From positions 1 through 42,504 of IMG/VR virus record IMGVR_UViG_3300025647_000077: DNA of 42,504 nucleotides; one strand, written 5' to 3'. The position numbers and the translations under genes were made by a program. A model generated the notes under the pieces. The model was not told where the DNA came from, ran no database searches, and saw only the letters and a program-made list of their open reading frames with translations. Positions 5,070 through 36,203 of the stretch are shown here, piece by piece. Each line of letters opens with the position of its first letter. Position 1 is the stretch's first letter. Origin of the DNA: a virus.

Positions 5070-5822
5070 ATGATTAAATTATTAACCCTTTTAAAAGAAA
5101 TTGAAGGTAAACCTAAAGCTATATTTTTAGCTGGCCCCGCTGGTAGTGGAAAAACTTACATTTCAAAACAATTAATCCCTTCTTCTTTAAAAGTTATTAA
5201 TTCAGATGACACTTATGAGGAACTTTTAAAAGCAAGTGGTATTGGTTTAAAACAAAAAGATTTTACTCCTGACCAATTATCTCAAGCAGCTAAATTGCAG
5301 GCACAAGCCCGAAAAACCACCCAAGATAAATTAATGCAATCTATAGAAGATAAAAATGATATTGTTATTGATGGAACAGGTGCTGCTTCAAATCCTGTAT
5401 TAAAGAAAAAACAACAATTAGAAGATTTAGGATATGAAACATTAATGTTAATGGTTTATGTCTCTCCTCTAGCTTCACTTGAACGTAATGCTCAACGAGA
5501 TAGAAGTTTAATGCCAGGTATTATTTTACGTACATGGAGAGATGTAAATAAAAATATTGATATTTATAGACAATCATTTGGAAATAATTTTATTTTATTA
5601 GACAACAATCCGGAAAATACTAATAAAGGTTTTTCACCTGAATTAATAGCTCCTTATCTTCAAGATTCAACAGCTAAAGGTAAACCTAAAACTCCTGAAG
5701 AAATAGCTAAATCAGTGGCATCAAAGGAAGCTTTAAATAAAGATATAGAAATTATGGTTAAAAAGTTACCTGAATTCGATTCAATCGATTCAGCTAAATC
5801 TAAAATCCAAAATTTTATATAA
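5070..5822 (+). CDS. P-loop kinase (zeta-toxin/polynucleotide-kinase-like), putative capsid cargo
   Basis: 250 residues. A Walker A motif GPAGSGKT (residues 22-29) follows a short strand (AIFLA). INSDD (about residue 43), IVIDGTG and a later ERNAQRDR segment resemble the zeta-toxin / AAA_33 kinase group, where an Asp near the P-loop binds substrate and an Arg-rich lid closes over ATP. Such enzymes phosphorylate nucleic-acid ends, UDP-amino-sugars or small molecules; the substrate is not predictable. The N-terminus MIKLLTLLKE is an amphipathic segment ending L-K-E directly before the enzyme domain, matching a gp21-cleavable capsid-targeting sequence. It lies in a TAATG overlap with the next gene. 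The kinase fold is confident; virion packaging is inference. Confidence 0.7.
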   Translation: MIKLLTLLKEIEGKPKAIFLAGPAGSGKTYISKQLIPSSLKVINSDDTYEELLKASGIGLKQKDFTPDQLSQAAKLQAQARKTTQDKLMQSIEDKNDIVIDGTGAASNPVLKKKQQLEDLGYETLMLMVYVSPLASLERNAQRDRSLMPGIILRTWRDVNKNIDIYRQSFGNNFILLDNNPENTNKGFSPELIAPYLQDSTAKGKPKTPEEIAKSVASKEALNKDIEIMVKKLPEFDSIDSAKSKIQNFI

Positions 5823-8122
5823 TGAATATAGGTGAAGAAATAGTATCACAATTATTAGAAGAGTCAACTCCTATAATAGCTTTATACCCAGGTAAATTTA
5901 AACCACCACATGCCGGACATTTTGATGTAGTAGCTAAAGCTGCTAATATTGCTGATAAAGTGATAGTAATAATGTCTAATGTACCTAAAGATGAGTTCAC
6001 ACCTGAGGATTCAATGAAAGTTTGGAGACTATATGAAGAAATTTTACCAAATAACACTCAAATAATAATATCAGGAAAATCTTCACCTGTAAGTGAAGTA
6101 TTTGATATTATAAAAGATAAATCAACAGACTTTTTAGTATTATATGGTAAAGGTGAAGAAAGCAGATATAGAGCCATAGAAAAAGATCCTAATACTTATT
6201 CTAATGTTAAAATAATAGATGCAGGTACTTTTGAAAACTTAAATGCTACTGATTTAAGAACTGCTATTAGAAATAAAGATTTAGAAGATATTCAAAAATT
6301 CTTACCTGTTAGTATTGATGCCAAAAAAGTATTAGATATATATACTCAGAAAGAATTTAAACCTGGTCCTGTACTATATGAGTTAAAATCTGATTACATT
6401 CAAAATTATATTAAAGAAGATATTGAAACTTGGGGAATGTTACCTGAATATAAAATAGATTTAAATAATGTTTATGACTATAAAAGTGAAAATGGGTTTT
6501 TTGATTTTTATGATGATGTAAATGAAGTTGATATAGTTGTTAAACTTAAAAAATTATCCTCTGATAATATTGAGTTTAAATTTTACCCAATGAGGGGTAA
6601 TGAAGTATTAGGGTTTTCTAAATTAAAGGATTTTAATCCCAAAATAATGAATACTGTTTTTACTGTATTCCAAAATGAAATTTTACCCAATTATAATAAT
6701 ATAGTAATACAACCTGCGGGATATACTAGATATAGATTATTTAGAGCTATGATAAATAATTATCTAGATAAAAATAAATATGAAGTTAAATTAAAAGATG
6801 ATATTGAATCCCCTTTAATTCTAATATCTAAAAAACAATCTCTACATGAGTTATTTGATAAGGATTTACCTAATATTAAAAAGATAAACTCCTATGAATA
6901 TGAAGTGGTACTACATTCTATAGAAGAATCTGCTAAACCTAGCATTAAAAAAAGAATGGAGAATATGAATGAATCATATAACCAATCTTTAAATTATTTT
7001 AAAAATGGAGATATATTCTCTCAAAGTAAAATTGAAAGAAATAACACCCTAAAAAAATATAATAATAGAAAACAAATATCAGAATTATATAATATACCCT
7101 TTAAAACTAACATATTACTAGAAACATTTACTCCTCAAAAAGCACCTCTAATGAAAAAATTTGTTGAGTATGCTTGTAATGAGTTAGAAATACATGAACC
7201 TCAAATTAATATTATAAATTCTCCTACTTACTCACAAGAACATAAAAGTTTTGGAGGTTACATACCTTCAGAAGAAAAAATATTGGTGGTAGTATATAAT
7301 AGAAACATGGCTGATATTTTAAGAACTTTAGCTCATGAATTAGTTCACCATTACCAGAAATTAAATGGAGATGAATTAAATGGAGAAGATGGCTCTGAAA
7401 CTGAAAATGAAGCCAATGCTAGAGCTGGAGTTATAATGAGAAAATTTGGACGTGAAAAGCCTGAAATATTTGAAGGTAAAAAACCTAAATTCTTTGTAAA
7501 TATTGATAAATTTAACCACCCTAAAACTACACAACAATATTTTATTGAAAATATAGAAGAAATTTCATTATCTAGAAAAAATACTGTTGATGTAAATGGG
7601 GATTTAACTGGAGGTACATTTACAGTAGGTGATATAACTTATGAATATAGTATAAAAAATATACCTAACCCTTATAAAAATTTAGGATTATTTTATAATA
7701 TTCAATTTACCCCTAGAGGAGAGATAACTTCAACTCCAAAGGGTGGGAAAGAAAATTATATAAAAATATTATCTACTATGTATAAAATTATAATAGACTT
7801 TATACAAAAAGAAAAACCTGAATATATTGGTCTATCTTCATTAGATGGTAGTGGAGATAAAAACTACCACACAGTATATAATAGTCTTACAACTAATAAC
7901 CTTAATAAGATTCCAGGATATTTTAGAAAAGATTCTAATCTTACATTTAATTCACCTCAAGGTAAAGGGAGATTTATAGTCTTAAAAAGAAAAGATAGTT
8001 TAAATGAAAAAATAGTTGGTGATAAAATAGAATGTAATAACTGTAGTTGGAGTTGGGATATAAAAGATGGAGGAGATGATCTTTTTATCTGCCATAAATG
8101 TGGACATGATAATAAAAAATAA
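5822..8122 (+). CDS. Cytidylyltransferase-like / zinc metalloprotease-like / zinc-ribbon fusion
   Basis: 766 residues with at least three recognisable parts. Residues about 15-165 form a nucleotidyltransferase of the cytidylyltransferase/NMN-adenylyltransferase type: PGKFKPPHAGH holds the HxGH nucleotide-binding motif (H30, H33), and NATDLRTAIR stands where the second signature usually lies. Residues about 430-570 contain a metallopeptidase helix LAHELVHHYQK (H505, E506, H509), with an acidic ETENEANARAG helix 20 residues later that could supply the third ligand. Residues 738-760 form a zinc ribbon (C738, C741, C757, C760). The linking region (170-430) and the 575-730 block are unassigned. 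The N-terminus (IVSQLLEE) resembles a capsid-targeting leader. The fold calls are fair; the combined role is unknown. Confidence 0.65.
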   Translation: MNIGEEIVSQLLEESTPIIALYPGKFKPPHAGHFDVVAKAANIADKVIVIMSNVPKDEFTPEDSMKVWRLYEEILPNNTQIIISGKSSPVSEVFDIIKDKSTDFLVLYGKGEESRYRAIEKDPNTYSNVKIIDAGTFENLNATDLRTAIRNKDLEDIQKFLPVSIDAKKVLDIYTQKEFKPGPVLYELKSDYIQNYIKEDIETWGMLPEYKIDLNNVYDYKSENGFFDFYDDVNEVDIVVKLKKLSSDNIEFKFYPMRGNEVLGFSKLKDFNPKIMNTVFTVFQNEILPNYNNIVIQPAGYTRYRLFRAMINNYLDKNKYEVKLKDDIESPLILISKKQSLHELFDKDLPNIKKINSYEYEVVLHSIEESAKPSIKKRMENMNESYNQSLNYFKNGDIFSQSKIERNNTLKKYNNRKQISELYNIPFKTNILLETFTPQKAPLMKKFVEYACNELEIHEPQINIINSPTYSQEHKSFGGYIPSEEKILVVVYNRNMADILRTLAHELVHHYQKLNGDELNGEDGSETENEANARAGVIMRKFGREKPEIFEGKKPKFFVNIDKFNHPKTTQQYFIENIEEISLSRKNTVDVNGDLTGGTFTVGDITYEYSIKNIPNPYKNLGLFYNIQFTPRGEITSTPKGGKENYIKILSTMYKIIIDFIQKEKPEYIGLSSLDGSGDKNYHTVYNSLTTNNLNKIPGYFRKDSNLTFNSPQGKGRFIVLKRKDSLNEKIVGDKIECNNCSWSWDIKDGGDDLFICHKCGHDNKK

Positions 8123-8126
8123 AAAA

Positions 8127-8666
8127 ATGATATCACTAAATAAATTATTTGAAGAAGAAAAACCAAAATTAAATTACAAAATTTATTGTGATATGGATGG
8201 GGTTCTAGCTGATTTTGAAGCAAGATTTGAACATTTTGCTGGTTTATCACCAGATGATTATAGAGCTGAAATAGCCAAAAAGTATGGTGAAAAGCAAGTT
8301 AATAAAATGTTTTGGGATCTTATTGATAACCAAATTGGGGTAAGATTTTGGAGAGGGATACCTTGGATGCCTCAAGGTAGACAATTATGGGATTATATTA
8401 AACCTTATAATCCAACACTTCTAACTTCACCTTCATGGGCAGAGTCAAGTAGGATGGGTAAATCTCTTTGGATTAAAGACCATATACCTGGTACTAAAGT
8501 TATATTCAGACAAGCCAAAAATAAACCAGACTTTGCAGAATCAAATGCTATTTTAATTGATGATAGAGAGGACACTATTATGAATTGGAAGTCTAAAGGA
8601 GGAATTGGTATTGTATATAGAACAACAGACCAAACAATAAACGAATTAAAACAATTAGGGTTATAA
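8127..8666 (+). CDS. HAD-superfamily phosphatase (5'-nucleotidase-like), putative capsid cargo
   Basis: 179 residues from the ATG at 8127. An upstream in-frame ATG at 8067 would overlap the end of the previous gene by 56 bases and is less likely. The HAD motif I is YCDMDGVLADF (D22 nucleophile, D24 acid/base); ILIDDRED near residue 150 gives the motif IV acidic pair; and LLTSP matches motif II (S/T after hydrophobics). The cap insert of about 80 residues is helical, as in dNT-like 5'-nucleotidases. A phosphatase acting on nucleotides or on the product of a nearby kinase is plausible. The N-terminus MISLNKLFEE ends with an L-F-E site before the catalytic domain, in keeping with the leader-peptide pattern of the cassette. 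Confidence 0.7.
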   Translation: MISLNKLFEEEKPKLNYKIYCDMDGVLADFEARFEHFAGLSPDDYRAEIAKKYGEKQVNKMFWDLIDNQIGVRFWRGIPWMPQGRQLWDYIKPYNPTLLTSPSWAESSRMGKSLWIKDHIPGTKVIFRQAKNKPDFAESNAILIDDREDTIMNWKSKGGIGIVYRTTDQTINELKQLGL

Positions 8667-9236
8667 ATGACACAATTAAACAAACAATTCTCAGAACGTG
8701 ATGTACAACGTATGCGTAATATTATCACAGGTAATACCGCAGATAATACTAGAATTCAAGCCGGTTATAGTAATAAAAAAGTACAATATACTGAAGGTGA
8801 TATATGGGAGGAAAATGGTAAAACCTGGACTATACACAACAGTATTAAACAAACTGTCACCAAACACGACGCGTTAAAGGCAATGGTTGAATTCCCACTT
8901 ACTTGCCCCAAATGTGGTAAGTCTATGAAAAATCATTCACTAAATAAAAAAATGTACAATATACATAGAATGTGTTCTAACTGTGTAGTAGAAATGGAAA
9001 CCAAACTTAGAATTGAAGGTAAATATCAAGACTATGAAAAGAATTTACTAAACGCTAACAAAAACACATCAGCAGATGATGCTGAACAGATATTTGAAGA
9101 TTTTATTAATAACCCAACTAGCACATATGTTACTGAAGATGGAACAATTGAAAGTTGGACAGGTGGAAATATATCACCTGAATTAATAAAAACTGTAAAA
9201 GATAATATAAAACGTTTAAGAGAAACAGAGATGTAA
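8667..9236 (+). CDS. Zinc-ribbon protein of unknown function
   Basis: 189 residues starting immediately after the preceding stop. A single zinc-ribbon is evident: CPKC (C80, C83) and CSNC (C103, C106), spaced by about 20 residues. An N-terminal stretch (residues 8-55) is basic and polar. The C-terminal helix carries an IKRLRETEM tail. Unlike most cassette neighbours it does not begin with a leader ending in (I/L)xE. A DNA- or RNA-binding role is possible, but no family is recognised. Near residues 60-80 the codons include several unusually GC-rich choices compared with the surrounding genes (for example GAC GCG). Confidence 0.5.
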   Translation: MTQLNKQFSERDVQRMRNIITGNTADNTRIQAGYSNKKVQYTEGDIWEENGKTWTIHNSIKQTVTKHDALKAMVEFPLTCPKCGKSMKNHSLNKKMYNIHRMCSNCVVEMETKLRIEGKYQDYEKNLLNANKNTSADDAEQIFEDFINNPTSTYVTEDGTIESWTGGNISPELIKTVKDNIKRLRETEM

Positions 9237-9245
9237 ATATTTATA
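9236..9245 (+). promoter_or_regulatory. AATATTTATA motif (putative late promoter)
   Basis: Exact AATATTTATA box overlapping the upstream stop region and 13 bases before the start at 9259. Confidence 0.45.
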
Positions 9246-9258
9246 TAAAAACTTAATT

Positions 9259-9828
9259 ATGGCTAATTTAAACTTGAAAAATCTTATTAAAGAAAGTATA
9301 ACAGATTATTTAAATGAATTAAATACTGAAAAAGAAGAAATTCAAGAAACCCCAATTCTAAAAGAAGAAGAATCAAACTTTGAAGATAAAGTAACTAAAG
9401 ATGGTAATATCTATTTAATTAGAAAACCAACTAAAAATATGTCTGAGGGAGGTATTGTTCAAGAAGTATCTTTAAAATCTTTAATAGGTGAAGAATATAT
9501 TGGTGCTTATACTATGGGTACACAAGCTTTAACTGCTGGTAAAAAAGCCTTAAAAGCTAGAGATGCCAAATTAAAAGAAAATGTTGGTGTTGGTAAAGCT
9601 AAAGTAATTGAATTAGAAGCCAAAATTGAAGGTTTGAAAAAAGCCATTGAAGATAATTCAACTAGAGCAGTTCATGATCCACAAAGAAGAGGTGAATTAA
9701 CTGAAACTAATGATACTCTATTTACCCAATTAGAAAAAATTGAAAATGCTGTTGAAAAATTAAAAGCAGTATTAGAAAAAGAATCTCCTAAAAAAACTAA
9801 AAAAGAAAAAAAAGAAGATGGGGAGTAA
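9259..9828 (+). CDS. Coiled-coil protein with capsid-targeting-like leader
   Basis: 189 residues. The N-terminus [12 protein letters not shown] is an amphipathic segment ending I-K-E, the (I/L)xE form of a T4-type prohead protease site. An acidic stretch follows (residues 25-45), then a compact region with the pattern [20 protein letters not shown], then a long predicted coiled coil (about residues 110-175, regular E/L/K heptads), and a Lys-rich tail. It is expressed behind an AATATTTATA box and overlaps the next gene by 11 bases. Such a layout suits an internal head protein or scaffold-associated protein. No homologous family is recognised. Confidence 0.5.
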
Positions 9829-11434
9829 TATAAACCAATTTAAATCCTTACTTCATAAATTAATTAAAGAAGAGTTAGAAGGAGAAGAAAAACCACAAGG
9901 GTTAGAAAAAATTAATTATGACTTAGTATTGGAGCCATCCAATTTACAATCGGCTCTATCTGCTTTAGGTGATATTAAGAATTATGGTATTTATGCTAAT
10001 AATTTAAGAGACCCAAAAACTATTATAAAAATATTTGGACCTAGTATCCCTGCCCAAAAAGCTAACACTGCTTGGAAAACTTGGGACATTTTAAATGATG
10101 AAGAAAAATTTGCCAAAGCAACTGATATTAAAAATAGAGTACCTGAAGCTTGGAAAACATTAGAAACTGAATTAGCAGATAAATACAATGAATGGCAAAT
10201 TGAAAATGATGAAGGTTCATTTGTTGAATTTATTTCTACTTTAAAATCAACAGATTTAAGAAATATAAAAAGTAATAGTTTTTTTGGTTCAAGAGGGGCT
10301 AATTATTATCCAATAAAAACACCAGATAATTTAAAAAAATATAGTGGTGTTATGACTAAGGATAAAAACTATATTGTAAGTGGGGATAAAATAATTTTTC
10401 CTCAAAAAAATAATCCATTTGAAACTAAAGATTACTTATCTAAAGTGCTTAAAACTATAATGGGTAATGCTAAATTGCAATATAATCTATCTCAAAAAGA
10501 AGCGGATAACCAACCAACAACCACCTCTAACACACAGGGTGCAATTGAGAAGATTAACTTCGTTAAAACGTTTAATAGTCCTGAATTAGCGAAAAAATTT
10601 ATGAAGTTTGTACCTAAAGATTTCGCTCCTAAAACAGAATTAGATGGTACTAAAATATCAGTATTAGATATAACTGATCTTCAAAAGAAAAATCTTATGG
10701 CAACAGCATTAAAATTTATAGCTGATAACACTCCTAAAAGTAAAATAAAAGAATCTATTTATAAGTTAATTCAAGAAGTATTAACTGAAAATAAATTTCC
10801 TGATTTAACAGGAGATGGTAAAGTAACTAAAGCTGATATACTAAAAGGTAGAGGAGTAGATTTTAAAAATGAAGACCTAGATGTAGGTCACCAAGATGAT
10901 GAACCAGAAATGTTAAAATCAGATGTATATCGTATAGCTAAAATGGCTTCTATGTTATATAAACAACTAGACCAATATGATAATATAGGTGGTGAAGTTG
11001 ATTTTCCACATTGGTGGCAAGCTAAAATTATCAAAGCATATGATTACTTACAATCAGCTTACGGTTATTTAGATGGTCAAGAAAAAATAGCCCAAATTGA
11101 TGCTATGATGAACTTAGAAGGAAAGGGAGGTGCTAATGCTGAAGAAGAAGAAGAATTTCATAAGAAACTTGACACATTGGTACATAATACCTTTGGAAAA
11201 AGAAAAGAAGAATTAAAAGAATTAGATAAAACCCCAGTTGAAGAAGGTATGTCTGATGATGAGTTTGCTAAAGCTAAAGAAGAAGATAGGTTATCTAAAC
11301 TCCCTATGGACCAACAACAAAAAATTAAAAAGGCAATAGCCATGTTAAAGGCCGAAAAAAATCTAAAAAATGAGAACAACCCATCCTCATATAAAGGATT
11401 ATTAAAAATTAGACATAATAGTAAAAAAAGCTAA
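9818..11434 (+). CDS. Large putative internal head protein with EF-hand/dockerin-like loop
   Basis: 538 residues. The N-terminus runs to [13 protein letters not shown], a leader ending I-K-E. Residues about 30-310 are a repetitive helical region with several Trp and Lys/Asp-rich segments. A second LIQE segment ([10 protein letters not shown], about residue 313) precedes a calcium-loop-like sequence [19 protein letters not shown] (P328 onward; D329, D333 and D340 as candidate ligands). The C-terminal part (about 355-470) is helical and acidic. The start lies 11 bases inside the previous gene. The two leader-like segments suggest that two ancestral proteins were fused or that processing occurs inside the chain. 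I do not recognise an enzymatic domain. Confidence 0.5.
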
Positions 11435-11469
11435 AAAGTAAGTTTATATTAATTTAGAAGATTCTAATA

Positions 11470-12312
11470 ATGAAAATTAACCAAATTAAACAATTAATCC
11501 AAGAAGTAATTCAAACCATATTTGAAGCTGATCTGCAATATAACGAAGGTGATAGAGTAGAAATAGAATCATCATATGGTGGAGGTATTGGTACTGTGGT
11601 TTTAGCTAAACACCCTTTTTATGCTATTAAATTTGATCAAACTGGAACAACAGATTCATTCCATTTTTCTGATCTAAGACCCTTTAGTGATGAAGAAGAA
11701 GAGGAAAAGAATGCTGATATAGAAACAGGTTTAAATGAAAATACTTTATTACATGAGGGTATCCAAACTTCATCTAACTTAAGATACCACTTAAATAAAA
11801 ACATGCCATTACATGAAAATATATTCAGATATGGTTCAGATGCTCAATTACAATTGTTTAAAGAGGTAAGAGATTTATACAACAAAGGGTTATTATATTT
11901 AAACCCTCATGATAGATGGTTAGTAGAAAATACTAGCATAGGTGAATATGGAGAATTTGAAAGTAAATTAGTTTCTTTAGATGTACCTTTTGTTGAAGAA
12001 ATATTAAACGAAGCTGAATATCAAGGTAAGGATGTTCAATTAAATAAACCTAAACGTGGTGGTTCTAAAAAATTCTATGTTTACGTTAAAAATCCTAAAA
12101 CAGGTAAAGTTAAAAAAGTACAATTTGGAGCAGCAGGTGGTGGTCAAAACTTAGCAGTTAAGATTAGAGATCCTAAAGCAAGAAAGGCTTTTGCTGCCCG
12201 TCAAAATTGTGCTAGAAAAAAAGATAGAACAACACCTGGATATTGGTCTTGTAATATTGGACGTTATTGGAAATCATTAGGTGGGGGATCAAATTTTAGT
12301 GGATACTGGTAA
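11470..12312 (+). CDS. Leader-bearing protein with C-terminal DUF5872-like basic domain
   Basis: 280 residues. The N-terminus MKINQIKQLIQEVIQTIFEA holds two consecutive (I/L)xE sites. Residues about 24-80 (YNEGDRVEIESSYGGGIG and following) look like a small beta-barrel of the KOW/Tudor type. The C-terminal about 90 residues are Lys/Arg-rich: KKFYVYVKNPKTGKVKKVQF, then DPKARKAFAARQNCARKKD and TPGYWSC, an arrangement I recall from basic DUF5872-related domains of T4-like phages. A DNA-binding internal head protein is plausible. The stop overlaps the next start as TAATG, and that neighbour also carries a DUF5872-like block, so the two probably act together. Confidence 0.55.
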   Translation: MKINQIKQLIQEVIQTIFEADLQYNEGDRVEIESSYGGGIGTVVLAKHPFYAIKFDQTGTTDSFHFSDLRPFSDEEEEEKNADIETGLNENTLLHEGIQTSSNLRYHLNKNMPLHENIFRYGSDAQLQLFKEVRDLYNKGLLYLNPHDRWLVENTSIGEYGEFESKLVSLDVPFVEEILNEAEYQGKDVQLNKPKRGGSKKFYVYVKNPKTGKVKKVQFGAAGGGQNLAVKIRDPKARKAFAARQNCARKKDRTTPGYWSCNIGRYWKSLGGGSNFSGYW

Positions 12313-13031
12313 TGGGTAATTTAAATGAAAAAACAAAAAGGGATAGATGTTTACGTATAGCAGATCGTAAATTTGATAAACCCTCTGCTTATAAATCTGG
12401 AGCTGTAGTTAGGTGCCGTAAAGGTAATATTTGGAAAGACTTAAAAGAGGCATTTAATCAACTTCTCCAAGAAGATGAATCCCTACATAAATGGTTTAAA
12501 CGTAGTGGACCTAAAGGTAAAGAAGGAGGATGGATTGATTGTAATGCACCTGACGGAAAAGGTGGGTATAAAGCCTGTGGTAGGAAAAAAGGTGAAAAAC
12601 GATCTAAATACCCTGCTTGTAGACCCACTCCTGCTGGTTGTAAACGTAAAGGTAAAGGTAAAACTTGGGGTAAAACTAAAGAAAATATGATAAAATTAAC
12701 TGATTTAATATTAGAATTGGATTCTAATAAAATCTTCCATATTGAAGGTAATATTATAATAGATAACCAAAAACGTAATACCCAAGATATATTATCAGAT
12801 ATCAGAGCTTTACCTGGTATTACTATTGTACGTAATATGGAACTACCACAAGATGCCTCCTCTCGTTACTTTAGAAGTTCACTTGAAATTAAAATAGATC
12901 CTTACCCTTATATTAAACAAAATAAATTTGATGGTAAAAAAACCATGAATGTTATAATTAATAACCTAAAAATTATTCCTGGTGTGATTGGATTTAAACA
13001 AACTTCTGAACCTTATTCAACTGACTTATAA
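12312..13031 (+). CDS. Cys/Arg-rich DUF5872-like protein, possibly a fusion of two genes
   Basis: 239 residues in three parts. Residues 8-42 (CLRIADRKFDKPSAYKSGAV, then VRCRKGNIWKDL) are a phage module with C13 and C35. Residues 56-122 match DUF5872-type proteins: SLHKWFKRSGPKGKEGGWID, then CNAP, KACGRKKGEKRSKYPACRPTP and GKGKTWGK, with Cys at 77, 89, 103 and 110 that could bind metal. A leader-like LLQE lies between them. The last part (126-239) begins MIKLTDLILE, itself a perfect leader-plus-site pattern, followed by a small alpha/beta domain. Met126 (12687) could be an internal start giving a 114-residue protein. The role is unknown; basic composition suggests nucleic-acid contact. Confidence 0.55.
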   Translation: MGNLNEKTKRDRCLRIADRKFDKPSAYKSGAVVRCRKGNIWKDLKEAFNQLLQEDESLHKWFKRSGPKGKEGGWIDCNAPDGKGGYKACGRKKGEKRSKYPACRPTPAGCKRKGKGKTWGKTKENMIKLTDLILELDSNKIFHIEGNIIIDNQKRNTQDILSDIRALPGITIVRNMELPQDASSRYFRSSLEIKIDPYPYIKQNKFDGKKTMNVIINNLKIIPGVIGFKQTSEPYSTDL

Positions 13032-13297
13032 TGAAACCTTATAAAGAAGTTTTTAAAAGAAATTCACGTATTCGTGAGTTTAAAGTTAATACTCCCAATA
13101 CTGAACTGGTATGGCATAGAGATGAAAAAGATCGTTATGTCACTATTTTAGAAGGAGAAGGATGGGAATTTCAATTAGATAATGAATTACCTTTGGAACT
13201 CCAGAAAAAAGATGTTATATTTATACCAAAACACGCATATCATAGAGTATTAAAAGGTAAAACGAATCTTATAATTAAAATAGAAGAAAATGTCTAA
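13031..13297 (+). CDS. Cupin-fold small protein
   Basis: 88 residues, a single-domain cupin: WHRDEKDRYVTILEGEGWEF carries the first cupin motif (with His and Glu as candidate metal ligands), and KDVIFIPKHAYHRVLKG the second (with His). The barrel strands between are LDNELPLELQ. It is short even for a cupin and has no leader segment. Cupins bind metal or sugar-like ligands and include oxygenases, isomerases and binding proteins; no substrate is suggested by the sequence. It overlaps the upstream stop (TAATG) and the downstream start by eight bases, so it is part of the same translated cluster. Confidence 0.65.
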   Translation: MKPYKEVFKRNSRIREFKVNTPNTELVWHRDEKDRYVTILEGEGWEFQLDNELPLELQKKDVIFIPKHAYHRVLKGKTNLIIKIEENV

Positions 13298-13643
13298 AAT
13301 TAAACTAAAAAATATTCTATCTGATTTAATAAATGAAGAACTTCAAGGGTATTCAAAATATATAGGTAAAACCAAAGGTTTAACCTCTGATGAGTTATCT
13401 CAAATTTTAACTAAAATAGTTAAAAGCGGATCTAAAGATAAAAAAGAAGAAGATCTTAAAGAAGGTGAAGAAACAGAATATACTGTAGATTACTGGTATC
13501 GTTATGGTAAATATGGTGAGGATAAAGATAGCGATGATATAAAAGTAATGGCATCTTCTGAAACCGAAGCCATTGAAAAAGCAAAACAGCAAGCTAGAAA
13601 AAGAGCTATATCTTCATCATTTGAAATAAGAAAAAGAAAATAA
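13290..13643 (+). CDS. Hypothetical protein with capsid-targeting-like leader
   Basis: 117 residues. The N-terminus MSKIKLKNILSDLINEELQG is amphipathic and ends I-N-E, the same pattern as its neighbours. A Lys/Glu-rich stretch follows, then a small domain (TEYTVDYWYRYGKYGEDKD, then an SSETEAIEKAKQQARKRA helix) that looks like a compact beta-alpha unit. No family is recognised. The start overlaps the cupin stop and the stop is two bases from the next start, so it belongs to the continuous cassette. Confidence 0.5.
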   Translation: MSKIKLKNILSDLINEELQGYSKYIGKTKGLTSDELSQILTKIVKSGSKDKKEEDLKEGEETEYTVDYWYRYGKYGEDKDSDDIKVMASSETEAIEKAKQQARKRAISSSFEIRKRK

Positions 13644-13644
13644 T

Positions 13645-15195
13645 ATGTCTTTAAATGTATTAAAAAAATTAATTAAAGAAGGTATTGAAGACTTTGTTTC
13701 TCAACAACAGCGAGAAACAATATCTTTTGAAGATAACCCTCTTGAATATATTATTCAAAAATATCCTTCATTAGATGATACTCTAGTAGATCTATTGACA
13801 GAAAAATATAGAGATTATATTACAGGTGTTTATATAATAGCACCCAAACCCACTACATTTAGAATTTTACTTCATAATGGTCAAGAATTTTATTTAATTT
13901 ATGGACCTAAAGCTTATACCGCTAAAATATCTGGTAAAAAATATTACTTACTTAACCTAAATGAAGAACAATTTGCTATAACCTCTATTGCAGCTTTATT
14001 AGAATTAGGTATGCCTCCAGGATCTGAAGGCCCAGGTGAACAAATGGATAATGATACCAATACTAACATGGAAGATGAAAACTTACCAACAGAAGAAACA
14101 CCAGCTGAAGAACCAGAGGAAGAATTAGCTGAAAATGAAGAAGTTAAACCTAAAAAAGTATTAAGGTTTAAAATAATTAAAGAAAATTTGTCAAAAAAAA
14201 CTTCCTTAAATGAAGTTACTGAAGCTGAAGAAGGTATTGAAATCTTAAAGTCTAAACTAGGATTAACAGATGAAAATTTCTCTAAAATATCAGGTAATAG
14301 ATATAAATTATTAGTACCTGGTTCTGAACGTATTGAGTATATTAAAAAAATTCAAGTAATTGAAGATTTTGATTATGACCCAAATATTAAAGGATCATCA
14401 ATAGGCGCTATTAAATATAAAAACTCATTTTTTGTTATAAAACCATCAGGTGCTCAAGGTAGAGCTTCTGCTGGAACTGAAAATGAAGATATATTAGAAA
14501 ATGAGATTAAAAAATATTTAGCATTAGGTGTTAAAAATATTACATTTAAAGCTTCAAACAAATCTTATTCTATACCAAACGTAACTGGAATAACAGGAGT
14601 AGGATATGATGTAGCAGGAGGTAAAAAAGCAGATATTGTTATAACTGGAACTGCAGGTAATTATCCAATCTCAATTAAAAAAGATAATGCTGGTTTTTGG
14701 GAAAGTGCTGATACTAGATATAAAAATTTAATAACTAAATTAGTTGCTAAAATTAAAAATGGAGATTTTAGTCCTGAATTAATTTTTAAGCCTTTTATTG
14801 ATAAATTAGGTAATGAAAAACAAGGTATAAATATAATGTATAATAGTACTACAAATACTAAAATATCAGGTGTATTAATAACAGATTTACCTAACAAAGA
14901 AGAAGAATCTATTATATTTGGTTCAGATAAAGCAGTTGTAATTTATAAAACATATACTGAAAATGATTTTACTCAACAAGGAGATAATTTAATTATCACT
15001 GTCTCTAAAATTATAGAAAACTTACAAGATGTAGAAGAATTTGATTTAGAACCTGTACTTAATATCAGACATGACTCAACAAGAAGTGCTACTGGTGGTT
15101 TAAGAGCAACAGTACAACCAAAAAATTTATTATATAAAGATGGAGCTGTAACAGGTAATAAAATTGAATTATCTTATAATAACATTATATCCTAA
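13645..15195 (+). CDS. Leader-bearing protein with possible PD-(D/E)XK-like nuclease core
   Basis: 516 residues. The N-terminus MSLNVLKKLIKEGIEDF ends I-K-E. Residues about 25-115 form an alpha/beta domain; an acidic low-complexity linker (about 130-170) follows. In the C-terminal half, KKADIVITG (D330) is followed 12 residues later by ISIKKD (S343, K345) and then GFWESAD. A D-(x)n-(D/E/S)-x-K arrangement on two strands recalls the PD-(D/E)XK nuclease fold with a Ser at the middle position. If correct, this would be a capsid-packaged nuclease. The alternative is an unrelated structural domain; I hold the nuclease call only weakly. It follows its neighbour by two bases. Confidence 0.45.
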   Translation: MSLNVLKKLIKEGIEDFVSQQQRETISFEDNPLEYIIQKYPSLDDTLVDLLTEKYRDYITGVYIIAPKPTTFRILLHNGQEFYLIYGPKAYTAKISGKKYYLLNLNEEQFAITSIAALLELGMPPGSEGPGEQMDNDTNTNMEDENLPTEETPAEEPEEELAENEEVKPKKVLRFKIIKENLSKKTSLNEVTEAEEGIEILKSKLGLTDENFSKISGNRYKLLVPGSERIEYIKKIQVIEDFDYDPNIKGSSIGAIKYKNSFFVIKPSGAQGRASAGTENEDILENEIKKYLALGVKNITFKASNKSYSIPNVTGITGVGYDVAGGKKADIVITGTAGNYPISIKKDNAGFWESADTRYKNLITKLVAKIKNGDFSPELIFKPFIDKLGNEKQGINIMYNSTTNTKISGVLITDLPNKEEESIIFGSDKAVVIYKTYTENDFTQQGDNLIITVSKIIENLQDVEEFDLEPVLNIRHDSTRSATGGLRATVQPKNLLYKDGAVTGNKIELSYNNIIS

Positions 15196-15205
15196 AATAA
15201 AACTA

Positions 15206-15215
15206 AATATTTATA
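15206..15215 (+). promoter_or_regulatory. AATATTTATA motif (putative late promoter)
   Basis: Exact AATATTTATA box 12 bases ahead of the start at 15228. Confidence 0.45.
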
Positions 15216-15227
15216 ACAAATAAAATT

Positions 15228-15743
15228 ATGACACAATCAGAAAAACAATTTCTTAGAATGCAAAGATTATCAGGACTTATAACTGAAGGGCAGTTAAATG
15301 AGGCTACTTCTTATTTATCTATTAAAGATAATTTAACCTCTGCTATGGAATCCATGGGTTATACAAAAAGAAATGAAGAAGATGAAGATATAGCTACATT
15401 TTTTACAACAATTACATACGAAAAACCAATGGATGAAAAATCTATACTTATAGCAGAAGTTATGCCTGATGCTGATGGAGAAATGGGTAAAAAACCAGAT
15501 GATTTTTCAAAAACCAAAATGGATTATAGTATGATTAGAGTTGCAATGGATTTATTAATTGATAAAGAAGAGGAAGTAAAAAGCTTCTTTGGAGCAACAA
15601 AAAAGAAAGTTCCTTATAAATCCACCCAAACTGTTCTTGAGATTAAAGTTTTAGACTTATCCCAAAATTCTACTGAAGAAGCTGTAAACAAAATAGCAAC
15701 AATATTTAAAGAAGGTGAAGCAAAAGCTCAGAGTATGTTATAA
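15228..15743 (+). CDS. Hypothetical protein with capsid-targeting-like leader
   Basis: 171 residues. The N-terminus runs MTQSEKQFLRMQRLSGLITE then GQLNEA, with two (I/L)xE sites at I-T-E and L-N-E. The mature part is an alpha/beta domain with a Glu/Asp-rich surface (MPDADGEMGKKPDDFSK), a Met-rich region and a final helix (AVNKIATIFKEGEAKAQSM). No family is recognised. It closes the putative cargo cassette; a hairpin-containing intergenic stretch and a terminator follow. Confidence 0.5.
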   Translation: MTQSEKQFLRMQRLSGLITEGQLNEATSYLSIKDNLTSAMESMGYTKRNEEDEDIATFFTTITYEKPMDEKSILIAEVMPDADGEMGKKPDDFSKTKMDYSMIRVAMDLLIDKEEEVKSFFGATKKKVPYKSTQTVLEIKVLDLSQNSTEEAVNKIATIFKEGEAKAQSML

Positions 15744-22983: not shown

Positions 22984-23787
22984 ATGAGTTCAATTGATTT
23001 ATTAAAATTTAGAAACCAATTATTAGCTGAAGGGTACGAAGACCAAGGATTTGATAGTGAAGATGATATGGAAAACTATTACCTTGATACTGACTTTATT
23101 GATGAAGGTGAAACATTAGAAGAAATGGCTTCATTTTATAAAATAGCAGATAATTCACCAGAAGCTAAAGCTGCAATTGCTGCCGCTAAAGAAAAATATA
23201 AACCTGGAACCACATTATATAATACTTTAGATACTCTAGAAAAAACTGGAGAAATTGATTATAAAGAATTAGCTAAACAAACTGGTAAAGATATGGCTAC
23301 TTTTAATAACCCAAAATCCAGAGGAGTATTAGAAAAAGAATTAGCGGCCTTTGTTCAAGTTGGGTCCTCTCCATCTACTGTCAAAACAGATAAACTAGCT
23401 GATCCAAATAAAGCAGCTGCTGCTCCAAAAACCAAATCTTCAAAATTAAAAATAACTAATCCAAAATCTAATTCAACTAAATTAGCTGACTTAGTACCAA
23501 GTGATATATCATCAGGTATGGAATCTGATGAAGAAGAAATGAATAATCAAGCTATAAAAGCTGCTAAAGGTAATAAAAGATTAGGTACTAAAATTGAGAG
23601 ATTAGCTCAAGTAACTAAAAAAATGAAATCTTTAGCCAAAGAATACCAAGAGGTTAAAGGTACACCTGCAGAAGCAAATATTATAGCTCAATTAAAAGAT
23701 TTAACAGCTGAGAAAAAAGCATTAGAGAAAAAAATAACTCCAAGACAAATGAGTGCTGCTGATTTAATGAGTGGGGAAGACCTGTAA
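22984..23787 (+). CDS. Leader-bearing protein upstream of terminase
   Basis: 267 residues. The N-terminus MSSIDLLKFRNQLLAE ends L-A-E, a candidate gp21 site. An acidic stretch follows (residues 17-50), then an Ala/Lys-rich region, a Pro/Ser/Lys-rich linker, and a C-terminal predicted coiled coil (about 205-250). In T4 the small terminase gp16 lies directly before gp17, so gp16 is one option. The length, leader and low-complexity linker fit a head-interior protein better, and no DNA-binding motif is seen. The assignment is open. Confidence 0.4.
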   Translation: MSSIDLLKFRNQLLAEGYEDQGFDSEDDMENYYLDTDFIDEGETLEEMASFYKIADNSPEAKAAIAAAKEKYKPGTTLYNTLDTLEKTGEIDYKELAKQTGKDMATFNNPKSRGVLEKELAAFVQVGSSPSTVKTDKLADPNKAAAAPKTKSSKLKITNPKSNSTKLADLVPSDISSGMESDEEEMNNQAIKAAKGNKRLGTKIERLAQVTKKMKSLAKEYQEVKGTPAEANIIAQLKDLTAEKKALEKKITPRQMSAADLMSGEDL

Positions 23788-27399: not shown

Positions 27400-28260
27400 A
27401 TGGCACAAATAAAGCATAATAAGTATAAAAATACCGGGATATTGTTTGAACTTCTTGTGAGAAAAATAACTGCTGACACTATATCTAACCATGATTCTAA
27501 AGCTGTTAATTTAATCAAGAAATTCTTTGTTAATAGTGAATTAGCTAAAGAAAACAAAATATACCAGACTATATCTAAAGCTCATAATATTAGTGAAGCT
27601 AAAGCTGAAACAATTATTTCTACATTATTAGAAATAAATAAAACTTTAGATAAAAATCAATTAGCAAAAGAAAAATATAATTTAATTAAAGAGATTAAAA
27701 ATAATTTTGATTTAGATGATTTTTTTAAAGCCAAAATTTCTAATTATAAATTACTTTCTGCTACTTATACTTTATTAGAAGCTAATTCTTCTCCTGTTAA
27801 AAATTTAGAAATTATTATTAATTCTAAATTAAACATTATAGAAAATGTTACTTTACCTACTACACAAACTGATTCATCTCCAATGATAAATGAGTTTCAA
27901 GATTTAGATAAAGGTACCAGATCTTTAGTTTATAAATTAATGTTAGAGAAGTTTAATACTAAGTTTGATAACTTATCAAATGAACAAAAAAAAGTATTAA
28001 AAGAATATATTGTTAATATTACAGATACCACTAAATTAAAATCCTTTGTTAATACCAGTTTTATTTCACTTAAGGAATCTTTGTTAAAAATTCTACCTAA
28101 AATAGAAGATGCTACAATAAAAATTAAAATTAATGAAACCATTAACTTAATAGAACCAGTATTGGAATCTAAAAAATTAAAGGATGAGCATATAATATCA
28201 TTACTACAATATCAAGAATTGCATGATGAATTAAATAAAATTCATAATGGAAAAAAATAA
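27400..28260 (+). CDS. Head-module protein of unknown function
   Basis: 286 residues, highly helical and Lys/Asn/Ile-rich. The start reads MAQIKHNKYKNTGILFELLV. It lies between the portal and the prohead protease, the place of small core proteins gp67 and gp68 in T4, but it is much longer than these. I recall similarly placed proteins in marine T4-like phages without known role. There is no catalytic motif. The end overlaps the next start by 14 bases. A role in prohead core assembly is inferred from position. Confidence 0.5.
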   Translation: MAQIKHNKYKNTGILFELLVRKITADTISNHDSKAVNLIKKFFVNSELAKENKIYQTISKAHNISEAKAETIISTLLEINKTLDKNQLAKEKYNLIKEIKNNFDLDDFFKAKISNYKLLSATYTLLEANSSPVKNLEIIINSKLNIIENVTLPTTQTDSSPMINEFQDLDKGTRSLVYKLMLEKFNTKFDNLSNEQKKVLKEYIVNITDTTKLKSFVNTSFISLKESLLKILPKIEDATIKIKINETINLIEPVLESKKLKDEHIISLLQYQELHDELNKIHNGKK

Positions 28261-28627
28261 ATTAAAAGAATTAGTCAAACAAGTAATGTTTGAATATTTG
28301 GAGGAAATGTCTACATCTGGGGCTGCTGGAGGTTATTTAACAAAATATGCTTTCAAATCCAAAAATTTAAATGAAGCCAGATATAGTACTTTTAAAAAAG
28401 AAGTAAAAACAAGAACACCTCAACAACAATTACATGAAGGAGTTAAAGCAATTCAACGTAGATTAGATGAAATTAATAGGTTAGTTGAATTTACCACTAG
28501 AATGAAAGATGAGTTAAAAGAAAATAATGAAGGGATTATATATTTAGAACGTACTTGTAAATCATTAAATAAAATAAACGAAAAAATTCAAGAAATTAAT
28601 ACTAAAATTAATAACTTAACAGAATAA
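28247..28627 (+). CDS. Putative prohead core protein (gp67-like position)
   Basis: 126 residues. The N-terminus MEKNKLKELVKQVMFEYLEE ends L-E-E and resembles the leader segments of the cassette proteins. A Gly/Ala stretch (TSGAAGGYLTKYAF) follows, then a charged helix and a C-terminal predicted coiled coil (about residues 70-126). The stop overlaps the next start (TAATG). Position and composition suit a small scaffold-core protein that is processed by gp21, but sequence similarity to T4 gp67 is not evident to me. Confidence 0.45.
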   Translation: MEKNKLKELVKQVMFEYLEEMSTSGAAGGYLTKYAFKSKNLNEARYSTFKKEVKTRTPQQQLHEGVKAIQRRLDEINRLVEFTTRMKDELKENNEGIIYLERTCKSLNKINEKIQEINTKINNLTE

Positions 28628-29908: not shown

Positions 29909-30532
29909 ATGAGCAAATCATTATTAATAGAATATTCAATTTTTACCCCTAAAACTACTCAATTAACTGAGGGAGTTAAAGGGGCTAAAAATTTGCTTGT
30001 TGAAGGTGTAGTTCAAAGAGCTGAAGCTAAAAACCAAAATGGTAGAGTTTATCCTAAACAAATTTTGGAAAATGAAGTTAAAAAGTATATAGAAACCTCT
30101 ATAGCAGAAAACAGAGCATTAGGGGAATTAGACCACCCTGAATCCACAATAATTAATTTAAAAAATGTATCACATAACATTAAATCCTTATGGTGGGAGG
30201 GTGATGACTTAATGGGTAAAATAGAAATATTACCAACACCATCAGGTAATATATTAAGAGAATTATTTGCTAATAATATTACAGTGGGTATTTCATCTCG
30301 TGGTATGGGTTCAGTGCAACCCTTAGGAGAAGGTACAGTAGAAGTACAAGATGATTTTGAACTTCTTTGTTGGGATTTTGTAAGTACTCCAAGTACTCAA
30401 GGAGCCTTCATGAAACCTACAGGTTTAAATGAAAATTTTAACCCACAATTAAACCAAAACCAATACTCAAAAGTAAACTCAATAATATCAGATATTATTT
30501 GTACTCAATCTGGTATATGTTGTATAAGATAA
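29909..30532 (+). CDS. gp21: Prohead protease (gp21)
   Basis: 207 residues. The T4-type prohead protease has a His-Ser catalytic pair: here the candidate His is in GELDHPES (H76) and the candidate Ser in GISSRGMG (S129 or S130). EAKNQNGRVYPKQIL and the FVSTPSTQGAF segment are also typical. The enzyme sits in the prohead, activates itself and cuts scaffold, core, capsid and internal proteins after (I/L)xE. Its own N-terminus offers such sites (LLIE near residue 8, QLTE near 20), so self-processing is likely. Position between core proteins and scaffold matches T4. A terminator follows the gene. Confidence 0.9.
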   Translation: MSKSLLIEYSIFTPKTTQLTEGVKGAKNLLVEGVVQRAEAKNQNGRVYPKQILENEVKKYIETSIAENRALGELDHPESTIINLKNVSHNIKSLWWEGDDLMGKIEILPTPSGNILRELFANNITVGISSRGMGSVQPLGEGTVEVQDDFELLCWDFVSTPSTQGAFMKPTGLNENFNPQLNQNQYSKVNSIISDIICTQSGICCIR

Positions 30533-31816: not shown

Positions 31817-33460
31817 ATGTCAAACTTAGTAAATCAATTACTTGAAACCGCAAACCCATATACGTCTTTGCAAAAAGACTCAGTTAGATTAGCTGCAAAA
31901 TGGGGCAAATCAGGTTTGTTAGAAGGAATTTCTAATGAAACCGATAAAACAAACATGGCTATCATTTTAGAGAACCAAGCAAAACAATTAGTAGTAGAAG
32001 CAAACCAAACTGGTGGTTCTGCGAATTTTCAACCTGGTACAGGTGAGCAGTACGCTGCTGTAGCTTTACCATTAGTACGTAAAGTATTCGGTCAAATCGC
32101 TGCTAAAGAATTTGTTTCTGTTCAACCAATGAGCCTACCAGCTGGATTAGTATTCTTCTTGGATTTCCAATATGGTGATACTAAAAGACCATTCGCTGAT
32201 GGTGATTCATTCTATGGTAAGGCTTCTGCAAACTTTGGTAATGAAGCTGCAGGTGGTTTATATGGTGCTGGTAGATTTGGTTATTCAATCAACCAATTCT
32301 CAGCTTCAAATACTACAATAGCTTCCGGATCAGGTATAGCTCCAACAGTTACATTTGCTGATGTAAACTATACTGCTGAATTATCAGCTTCTATGTTAGC
32401 AAATGAAATTATCAAAGTTACTATCCCTGTAGCTACAATAGCTGATTATGATGTAAATGGAGTTAGAGCATTCACTGCTGAATCTGGATCAGGATTTACA
32501 GCTTCTAAACTATTATCTGCTTTCACAAAAGTGAATGGAGTTAATATTGAATTCTTCTATACAGGATCTGCTAGTGATATTAAAACTGGTAATAGTACAT
32601 TTGCTGTTTTCTACAACAAAGCTACATCAGATGCTAACAGAGGTGATTTTGAAGATGGAAACGCATATGCTGTACCAAATGCTGCTAGTAGTACTTCAAT
32701 CTCTATACCAGAAGTAGATGTTAAAATGAGATCAGAAGCTATTGTTGCTAAAACAAGAAAATTAAAAGCACAATGGACTCCAGAATTTTCTCAAGACCTT
32801 AATGCTTTCCATTCATTGGATGCTGAAGCAGAATTAACTTCTATCTTATCAGAATATATCTCATTAGAAGTTGATTTGGAGATCTTGGATATGCTAATCC
32901 AAAATGTACCAACTAACCAAGTTGAAGTATGGTCTGCAAAAGTAGGTGACTCTTTTGTAAATGGTGCTAGACAATCCAACACATCAGGTGTTTACTACAC
33001 TCAAATGTCTTGGTTCCAAACTTTGGGAATTAAATTACAAAAAATCTCTAACTTAATTCACCAAAGAACTTTAAGAGGTGGTGCTAACTTCTTGGTAGTG
33101 TCTCCAACTGTAGCTACAATCTTAGAATCAATTCCAGGATTTGCAGCAGATACTGATGGTGATGTAGCAAAAGCTTCATACGCTTTCGGTGTACAGAAAA
33201 TTGGTGCTTTAAACTCTCGTTATAAAGTATACAAAAATCCTTACATGACTGAAAATGTTATTTTAATGGGATTCAGAGGTAACCAATTCTTAGAATCAGG
33301 TGCTGTTTATGCTCCATATGTTCCACTTATCATGACTCCATTAGTAATGGATCCAGATACCTTCACTCCACGTAAAGGGATAATGACAAGATATGCTAAG
33401 AAAATGGTGAGACCAGAATTTTATGGTAAAGTATTAGTAGCTGATACTAACATTATCTAA
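31817..33460 (+). CDS. gp23: Major capsid protein (gp23)
   Basis: 547 residues, similar in length to T4 gp23. Position directly after the scaffold, and the C-terminal order of a T4-type HK97-fold capsid, support the call: KMRSEAIVAKTRKLKAQWTP then EFSQDLNAFHSLDAEAELTS, ISLEVDLEILDMLIQN, RGGANFLVVSPTVATILES, the central KYRVYIDQY-like element (SRYKVYKNPYMTENVILMGF), and a GMKTRY-like RKGIMTRYAKKM. The N-terminus is probably cut by gp21; MSNLVNQLLETANP has L-L-E and LVVEANQTGGS is a later option. The protein forms the hexameric head lattice. A terminator follows 25 bases after the stop. Confidence 0.92.
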   Translation: MSNLVNQLLETANPYTSLQKDSVRLAAKWGKSGLLEGISNETDKTNMAIILENQAKQLVVEANQTGGSANFQPGTGEQYAAVALPLVRKVFGQIAAKEFVSVQPMSLPAGLVFFLDFQYGDTKRPFADGDSFYGKASANFGNEAAGGLYGAGRFGYSINQFSASNTTIASGSGIAPTVTFADVNYTAELSASMLANEIIKVTIPVATIADYDVNGVRAFTAESGSGFTASKLLSAFTKVNGVNIEFFYTGSASDIKTGNSTFAVFYNKATSDANRGDFEDGNAYAVPNAASSTSISIPEVDVKMRSEAIVAKTRKLKAQWTPEFSQDLNAFHSLDAEAELTSILSEYISLEVDLEILDMLIQNVPTNQVEVWSAKVGDSFVNGARQSNTSGVYYTQMSWFQTLGIKLQKISNLIHQRTLRGGANFLVVSPTVATILESIPGFAADTDGDVAKASYAFGVQKIGALNSRYKVYKNPYMTENVILMGFRGNQFLESGAVYAPYVPLIMTPLVMDPDTFTPRKGIMTRYAKKMVRPEFYGKVLVADTNII

Positions 33461-35430: not shown

Positions 35431-35928
35431 ATGGCATATTTTGGAAGATCACGAGATGTTAGTATGTTCTCTAATATTAATAATGAATTATTAGGACAAG
35501 TAATAGAACAAAAAATAGGGTATTATCAAGTGGTACTTGATGAAACTCCCTCTAATATCTATGGAGAAAATCAAAATAAAACTTTTAGAGGCCCTGTATT
35601 AATAAATTGTTTATTAGAAAGAGGAGCATATGAATCTTTAAATGATGATTTTGGAGTAGATATTAATAGACCCTTAACAGTCAGATTTTTTAGACCTCAC
35701 TTAATTTCAGCTAATGTAGTACCTAATATAGGTGATATTATACTTTGGAATGAAGATTATTATGAAATTGATAATGTAGATGAAAATCAATTAGTAGTTG
35801 GTAAAGACCCTAATTACGCTTATAGTAATAGCAATGGAGTACCAGATTCAGGAACAAGTTTATCAATAATAGTAACATGCCATTATACTCGCCCAGAACG
35901 TATTGGTTTAAGAGACGATAGATTATGA
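35431..35928 (+). CDS. gp14: Neck protein (gp14-like)
   Basis: 165 residues, shorter than T4 gp14. The segment INRPLTVRFFRPHLISANVV followed by PNIGDIILWNEDYYEIDNVD matches the T4 gp14 element in which a strand with a basic turn is followed by GDLIYFP..LFEINWV. It forms, with gp13, the neck that seals the head after packaging. It lies one base after the gp13 stop, and its own stop overlaps the next start as ATGA. The similarity is by eye and the missing terminal parts may be replaced in this lineage. Confidence 0.65.
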   Translation: MAYFGRSRDVSMFSNINNELLGQVIEQKIGYYQVVLDETPSNIYGENQNKTFRGPVLINCLLERGAYESLNDDFGVDINRPLTVRFFRPHLISANVVPNIGDIILWNEDYYEIDNVDENQLVVGKDPNYAYSNSNGVPDSGTSLSIIVTCHYTRPERIGLRDDRL

Positions 35929-36203
35929 TAAAATTAAAAAATATAATAAATGAAATAACTCCAAGAACTAGTTTCTCAACTAGCCAACAAGAGACTGATC
36001 CTGAAACCGGTAAAATTACTTGGAATGTTAAATATCATCCTGCTAAAGAATTAGAAAAAGGATTAATTAATGTTCAAGAACAAATGGAACTTTTAATAAA
36101 ACAAAATCCTAAAGATTTAAAATTAATTGAACTTTATAATCTATATCGTAAATATAAAAAATCATTAAATACTTATTTAAATAAACAATATCCTAAAAAA
36201 TAA
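35925..36203 (+). CDS. Small hypothetical protein with capsid-targeting-like leader
   Basis: 92 residues. The N-terminus MIKLKNIINE ends I-N-E, close to the pattern of the cassette leaders. A Glu/Lys-rich helix follows, with a predicted coiled coil (about 45-85), ending LNKQYPKK. It overlaps gp14 (ATGA) and abuts gp15 (TAAATG), so it is a structural-module gene. No family is recognised. If it is a leader-bearing internal protein it would be unusually placed in the neck/tail block. Confidence 0.45.
   Translation: MIKLKNIINEITPRTSFSTSQQETDPETGKITWNVKYHPAKELEKGLINVQEQMELLIKQNPKDLKLIELYNLYRKYKKSLNTYLNKQYPKK

Follow-up and report, generated by a model that had tools for sequence, protein, structure and literature searches.

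The viral DNA stretch analyzed here (IMG/VR record IMGVR_UViG_3300025647_000077, positions 1 to 42,504; hereafter, the window) contains, at positions 5070-15743, a block of twelve genes encoding enzymes and proteins of no assigned function, many of which begin with a short amphipathic segment ending in (I/L)xE. The question raised by this block is what role such N-terminal leaders may play. A sequence-only reading of the DNA had proposed that the block encodes effectors that are carried in the phage head and injected. According to our analysis, the best explanation is a set of effectors targeted to the capsid and processed by gp21 in the manner of phage T4, overlapping the class of polyvalent proteins; the probability of this explanation is estimated at about 0.78. 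Packaging and injection of the cargo are supported by the leader itself, by the contrast between gene classes in phage immuto, and by the kinase and NMNAT found in virions of cyanophage S-CREM2. For the phage in question, we infer packaging, cleavage and injection from sequence.

The 42.5-kb window is a viral fragment that includes a T4-type head operon with terminase, portal and scaffold genes, the gp21 (S77) protease and gp23. Its closest isolate is Flavobacterium phage immuto (gp23 is 57.5% identical), in which the gene order is the same: primase-exonuclease-[cassette]-terminase-portal-gp21-gp23. In addition, the proteins of contig IMGVR_UViG_3300025655_000523 (L119, L205) are 100% identical to those of the window over the compared parts, and this contig probably belongs to the same virus population.

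In the proposed mechanism, the block would encode phage-head cargo, namely, enzymes plus small basic proteins. Docking of these proteins into the prohead core would be the task of an amphipathic N-terminal leader of 9-22 residues, which is the putative counterpart of the capsid-targeting sequence of T4. Cleavage after (I/L)xE by a gp21-type protease would release the mature enzymes within the head, from which they would enter the next host together with the injected DNA. The cargo appears to consist of interchangeable modules (kinase, NMNAT, nucleotidase, zincin peptidase, ADP-ribosyltransferase (ART)-like domain and basic modules). Fused modules would keep (I/L/V)xE at the joint, and therefore the same protease would separate the domains as well.

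The leader motif and its background

All N-termini quoted for the block in the sequence-only reading were found in place; gene starts were taken from a simple caller. The accompanying warning that the tripeptide alone is common was justified, as [IL]xE ending at residues 7-25 occurs in 10 of the 12 block genes, in 21 of the 36 other window genes, and in 24-29% of internal 25-mers. Because of this frequency, the bare (I/L)xE tripeptide was dropped as proof of a leader, and the stricter motif PHI-x-x-PHI-PHI-x-E was adopted. The motif was derived from the window leaders; the other genomes are out of sample, yet related. With Glu at residues 8-24, the full motif bears out the leader in nine of the twelve block genes. 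The genes lacking it (designated here by start position) are 8667, 12312 with a shortened leader (MGNLNE), and the cupin gene 13031, for which the absence of the pattern had been correctly noted. As for the candidates suggested outside the block, 35925 carries the full motif, and 22984 and 28247 proved to be near misses only.

The full motif with Glu at residues 8-30 is present in 11 of 49 window genes, versus 4.7% of internal 30-mers. In 200 composition-preserving shuffles of the window, the mean number of matching genes was 2.0 and the maximum was 6. The same analysis was applied to the window itself, to immuto and to four large contigs; in each of these six genomes, the motif was 3-8 times more frequent than in shuffles and exceeded all 200 of them. 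When Glu was limited to residues 9-13, the counts were 5, 14, 13, 9, 16 and 10, compared with 0.5-1.9 by shuffling. Among 763 superfamilies, 21 have the Glu at residue 10, where shuffling predicts 1.2; for residue 12 the number is 13 (1.2 expected) and for residue 9 it is 8 (1.4 expected), and a further cluster at residues 20-22 corresponds to a second leader type, RMQKLAGIITE.

Leader distribution was also assessed over 115 families drawn from 80 related loci plus the six genomes. The kinase and three other cassette proteins served as queries for collecting the loci by homology; the families are therefore not a random sample. The distribution is bimodal, the leader being present in at least half of the members for 14 of the 115 families. 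It is retained in 78/78 members of the kinase family, 9/9 of the 9818 family, 8/8 of the 9259 family and 23/25 of the 11470 family; the cupin and 8667 families are leaderless.

According to the sequence-only reading, an equal frequency of such N-termini in non-virion genes would speak against the proposal. In immuto, the leader was found in 8 of 14 cassette genes (including gp78, whose hit at 116531 is probably a chance one), 2 of 50 annotated non-virion enzymes (Fisher p = 2.5e-5) and 2 of 20 tail genes. The hit at 116531 and that at 41448 of contig G003 are regarded as probable chance matches because the family N-terminus is ordinary elsewhere. Outside the immuto cassette, gp3, gp231, gp230, gp168 and gp114 (L083, L084) are isolated small leader-bearing genes. 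One of the isolated genes adjoins baseplate genes; its leader is MKLDLLKKLIKEAVKEAV, and it resembles a family with the leader in 4/4 members found.

Could AT-rich N-termini full of K, I, L and E yield such strings by chance? The frequency of the bare tripeptide near the N-termini of non-block genes agrees with this, but composition-preserving shuffles never attain the observed counts of the full motif. Two marine flavophages of similar GC content (30-33%) show no excess of the motif (1/81 and 1/104 genes, 98-99 kb read in each), and the S77 profile found no match in them. Moreover, the leaders are family-specific, with four positions invariant over 73 homologues, and the matched non-virion enzymes of immuto show the opposite of an equal frequency. 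An origin by chance or composition is thus rejected by the shuffles and the S77-less phages, and is considered highly improbable.

Likeness to T4 targeting sequences and to virion proteins

The presence of gp21, claimed from the sequence alone, was confirmed: the S77 prohead protease, the proposed processor, is encoded at 29909..30532 (plus strand, as are all window features below; PF03420, E = 5e-35; phrog_207, E = 1.5e-56), and relatives have one as well. The major capsid protein gp23 (31817..33460; phrog_138, E = 2e-68) contains a predicted gp21 site, SGLLE^GISN, at 31910-31936. The predicted cut GLLE^G is conserved in 6/6 genomes and matches the (I/L)xE signature of the cargo.

The suggested likeness to T4 capsid targeting was borne out. 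In the T4 leaders of Alt (MELITELFDE), gp24 (MAKINELLRE) and IPII/IPIII (MKTYQEFIAE), the spacing is the same and Glu is likewise at residue 10. Mutational work on T4 IPIII, reviewed in PMC9026906, assigned targeting mainly to residues 4 and 7 and processing to residues 8 and 10. In 73 scored homologues of the kinase, the leader has the form M-I-x-L-x-x-[LI]-L-x-E, where the type of residue does not change at positions 4 (L), 7 (L/I), 8 (L) and 10 (E) and residues 3, 5, 6 and 9 are variable; the invariant positions of these leaders coincide with those of IPIII targeting and processing. The leader is evidently an added extension, since the enzyme profiles begin downstream of it, at residue 13 in the kinase, 21 in the NMNAT and 16 in the nucleotidase. 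The start of the T4 DNA-end protector gp2 (L264:27162-27986), MAIFQIINE^S, also fits the leader pattern.

The proteins of the block share with T4 internal proteins and Alt a leader of about 10 residues, hydrophobic residues at positions 4, 7 and 8, Glu at 10, an (I/L)xE cut site, and an S77 protease in the genome, and the cargo modules of relatives include ART-like domains. Unlike in T4, the predicted cargo set is far larger (14/115 families), enzymatic and modular, is clustered between the exonuclease and terminase genes, and has sites at domain joints. In SPN3US and phiKZ, according to the available portions of the sources, N-terminal propeptides of head ejection proteins are likewise removed by an S77-related prohead protease after a Glu motif; however, that motif is AxE or SxE, the propeptides are mostly long, and a modular enzyme set with such a short leader is not described in those portions. 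The open-access literature that was found to link a prohead protease with capsid targeting comprises only work on T4, SPN3US or phage P1.

Additional evidence was obtained from the virion proteome of the distantly related T4-like cyanophage S-CREM2, which contains 52 of 219 proteins (PMC10665884, Table 3). Five of the six genes having a leader with Glu exactly at residue 10 encode virion proteins, versus 47 of the 213 others (p = 0.003), the choice of residue 10 being motivated by T4 but made after the virion N-termini had been seen. The five are an S-adenosylmethionine (SAM) hydrolase, a 78-residue protein, an APH-like kinase, ORF136 and a cytidylyltransferase/NMNAT. Mass spectrometry has also revealed NMNAT-like proteins in the virions of two further cyanophages, S-SCSM1 and S-CBWM1 (PMC9602691). 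The NMNAT and kinase proteins of these cyanophages are of related enzyme types, those of S-CREM2 having the leader with Glu at residue 10, but come from another phage family and host. The S-CREM2 paper makes no mention of an N-terminal leader or targeting (PMC10665884). The S-CREM2 virion protein ORF160 shows weak similarity with the product of window gene 12312 (50% over 30 residues, pair E = 7e-6) and has LSE and ISE strings near its modules. In a Cas9-like S-CREM2 virion protein (L275:7704-10313, minus strand), a targeting-like string, FASFMAE^A, ends at residue 25; it looks as though the protein had been given a capsid tag.

Amphipathic N-terminal tags act as docking peptides in other systems, for example, as encapsulin or microcompartment tags. 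Similarly, during infection the leader could bring enzymes together in a complex or compartment that has nothing to do with the capsid, and several cargo enzymes are indeed soluble metabolic types. This explanation appears unlikely: the leader positions are identical to those of T4 targeting and cleavage, Glu at P1 is invariant, leader-bearing proteins occur in S-CREM2 virions, and the excess is absent in the two S77-less phages.

Several points weigh against capsid targeting and gp21 processing. The S-CREM2 association, besides resting on a position chosen as stated above, weakens with wider windows (p = 0.02-0.06). Cyanophage Syn9 shows no leader enrichment over the 150 kb read and does not support a universal occurrence of the leader among cyanophages. 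The NMNAT polyprotein of immuto begins without a leader, genes 8667 and 13031 (cupin) lack it within the block itself, and the phrog_12709 domain found at the C-terminus of the 13645 product is standalone and leaderless in most phages. At P1', the leaders favor V, S, I and A. Finally, no mass-spectrometric virion data turned up for this phage, for immuto or for another close relative.

Candidate sites at domain joints

The analysis of domain junctions goes beyond the sequence-only reading, which had missed the sites located there. About 220 loci plus the six genomes supplied 2,730 non-redundant proteins for comparison, and 277 events were detected in which a module is a leader-bearing gene in one phage and lies inside a larger protein in another. 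In 199 of these events (72%), a hydrophobic-x-E string lies no more than six residues from the expected cut, compared with 27% at random positions of the same proteins; it is in the exact expected column in 24% versus 2.4%. When events were grouped by module and host protein, 35/43 groups had an (I/L/V)xE joint site (p = 1.6e-13). The helical leader is often lost at joints, where only the tripeptide is retained; for instance, MIKLLDILNE^ADPK of a standalone protein corresponds to FVNE^ADPK, NMVE^ADPK and NLKE^ADPK in fusions. The resulting chains, 800-1,200 residues in length, are polyproteins that combine NMNAT, zinc-ribbon, ART-like, basic, HExxH and nucleotidase modules. The window genes 5822, 9818, 11470, 12312 and 13645 contain joints of this kind.

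A recurrent spacer, e.g., KE^TSDPQSGKAAPYGSGYAPVKE^, has sites at both ends in several proteins. It is about 20 residues long, with the consensus (L/M/I)KE-(T/A)xDPQxGxAxPYGSGYAxVKE, and its PYGSG core was found in 17 non-redundant proteins; examples are L061:3689-6610, the ORF at L033:10753, L074:3878-6727 and immuto gp84 (L082:21185-21655). The ART-like module (L063:13099-13683; L061, residues 230-374) has the pattern LYHYT...SFTR...EAEERI with an H-Y-E-like signature and usually sits directly after a cut-like site. Its similarity to Tox-ART-HYD1 (PF15633) is sub-threshold, the best structural match is a weak one with KptA/Tpt1 (E = 0.005), and no match was found among PDB sequences.

Proteins of the cassette combine at least two disparate effector domains in one chain. 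Like the polyvalent proteins described in the available portion of their source (PMC5512222), they unite several unrelated domains per chain (putative zincin peptidase, ART-like, NTase, kinase), and delivery with phage DNA is predicted for both. In the same portion, domain separation is assigned to a built-in metallopeptidase and, rarely, to a fused assemblin-like peptidase; here, the T4-type leader and the (I/L)xE joint sites point to the prohead protease as the processor, instead of or besides such a metallopeptidase. The joint sites suggest polyprotein cargo that would be cut by the prohead protease, an enzyme whose role is to mature the capsid. Effectors of up to ~1,200 residues would carry a T4-type tag and be split in the head before injection, and the modules would be freely mixable because each carries its own cutting site. 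This reading is somewhat favored.

It is also possible, with a distinctly lower probability, that the leaders target the head as in T4 and the joints stay uncut, (I/L)xE being a fusion remnant or a feature of Glu-rich linkers, and that any processing is the work of the zincin peptidase. Gene fusion naturally leaves a leader inside, as in 12312 and immuto gp79, and self-processing by a metallopeptidase was proposed in the available portion of Iyer 2017 (PMC5512222); an HExxH motif is present in 5822. However, many fusions have lost the helical leader and keep only the tripeptide (FVNE^ADPK, NLKE^ADPK, LDE^SLRDWF). Furthermore, a hydrophobic P3 accompanies 49% of the Glu residues near joints but 24% of those in other parts of the same proteins, a twofold difference for which Glu-rich linkers alone are an insufficient explanation.

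Predicted cargo genes of the block and their significance

The first gene of the block (5070..5822) encodes a P-loop kinase of the Zeta-toxin/AAA_33-like type (PF06414, E = 3e-12, domain from residue 13) with the 10-residue leader MIKLLTLLKE at 5070-5099. It is followed by a multi-domain gene (5822..8122, leader MNIGEEIVSQLLEE), in which an NMNAT/cytidylyltransferase domain (PF01467, E = 2e-5, from residue 21), a putative HExxH peptidase, a DUF6934-like region and a zinc ribbon were recognized. The peptidase motif lies in LAHELVHHYQ, and the architecture is as in relatives, in which Pfam matches to the zincin class are sub-threshold only. From comparison with other fusions, a junction site, DSLNE^KIVGD, is predicted before the zinc ribbon (7994..8044); elsewhere, this module is preceded by LTE^G, LTE^A or LKE^E in fusions and has its own leader when standalone.

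The gene at 8127..8666 encodes a 5'-3' deoxyribonucleotidase (phrog_2643, E = 2.5e-24, from residue 16) with the leader MISLNKLFEE; the start at 8127, rather than 8067 or 8106, is backed by homologues. In this family of 51 members, three unrelated leaders were found (MISLNKLFEEE, MKKTPTLLDLYEA and MYKLTDLYKQLKEE), each having LxE before the conserved enzyme start IYCDMDGVL in the members listed. No match at 1e-3 was detected for the kinase and nucleotidase among PDB sequences. Of the activities originally suggested, the kinase, nucleotidyltransferase and phosphatase are supported by profile matches, and an HExxH motif is seen in 5822. A nuclease identity was considered for the C-terminal domain of 13645 but not retained: PDB sequences gave no match to it, and the fold comparison yielded nothing significant, its weak hits being restriction-endonuclease-like.

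The proteins encoded at 9259..9828 (predicted leader cut before S) and 9818..11434 (multi-domain, leader ...LLHKLIKE) have no assigned function. The latter has an internal leader-like segment at 10757-10795 and shares a domain with immuto gp79. The multi-domain product of 11470..12312 (leader MKINQIKQLIQE; C-terminal phrog_7595, E = 7e-13) has candidate internal sites LLHE^G (11740-11766) and LNE^A (12001-12030).

Gene 12312..13031 fuses basic DUF5872-type modules (PF19197, E = 9e-7) and another module; its three modules are separate or otherwise joined elsewhere. In relatives, the first of them has a full leader, MDRLQKLINE and others. The junction LLQE^DESLHKWF (12456..12497) occupies a position that is a site in 13/13 events of this module group. 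A presumed former N-terminal leader, MIKLTDLILE^LDSNKIFH (12687..12740), is now internal; its counterpart in locus L006 is a separate gene beginning with MISISKLLNE^GNLDKIFHLEG.

Gene 13290..13643 encodes a small protein of no assigned function, with the leader MSKIKLKNILSDLINE identified by motif match; no homologue family of at least four members was found for it in the loci fetched. According to profile and fusion comparisons, gene 13645..15195 joins the leader MSLNVLKKLIKE, a domain found inside immuto gp79 and a phrog_12709 domain, with a candidate junction IIKE^N / SLNE^V at 14170-14232. The standalone phrog_12709 protein (L218 and other loci) is 364-373 residues long and highly conserved (KKADxxL...PISIKKD). 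The last gene of the block (15228..15743) carries the second leader type, FLRMQRLSGLITE^G, as do immuto gp83 (MKKQILSEQFRRMQKLAGIITE^S) and other proteins in relatives.

Outside the block, a weaker cargo candidate precedes the terminase gene (22984..23787, ...RNQLLAE^G) and resembles immuto gp77 (MADNFNLRSFLTE...). Another weaker candidate is the head-region protein at 28247..28627 (MEKNKLKELVKQVMFEYLEE), in whose place immuto has gp72 (MKKSQIVKAVQEVLEE). The small protein encoded at 35925..36203 has the leader MIKLKNIINE by motif match.

If the proposed explanation is true, a tag readable in sequence would allow proteins of no assigned function to be predicted as head-delivered effectors in marine T4-like phages, which are abundant, and would supply exact cut sites for testing. 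It may also explain why NMNAT and kinases recur in cyanophage virion proteomes. Attempts to load phage heads with several proteins could make use of the tags and joints. The internal proteins of T4, a few anti-restriction factors, would thereby be extended to a delivery system of modular design.

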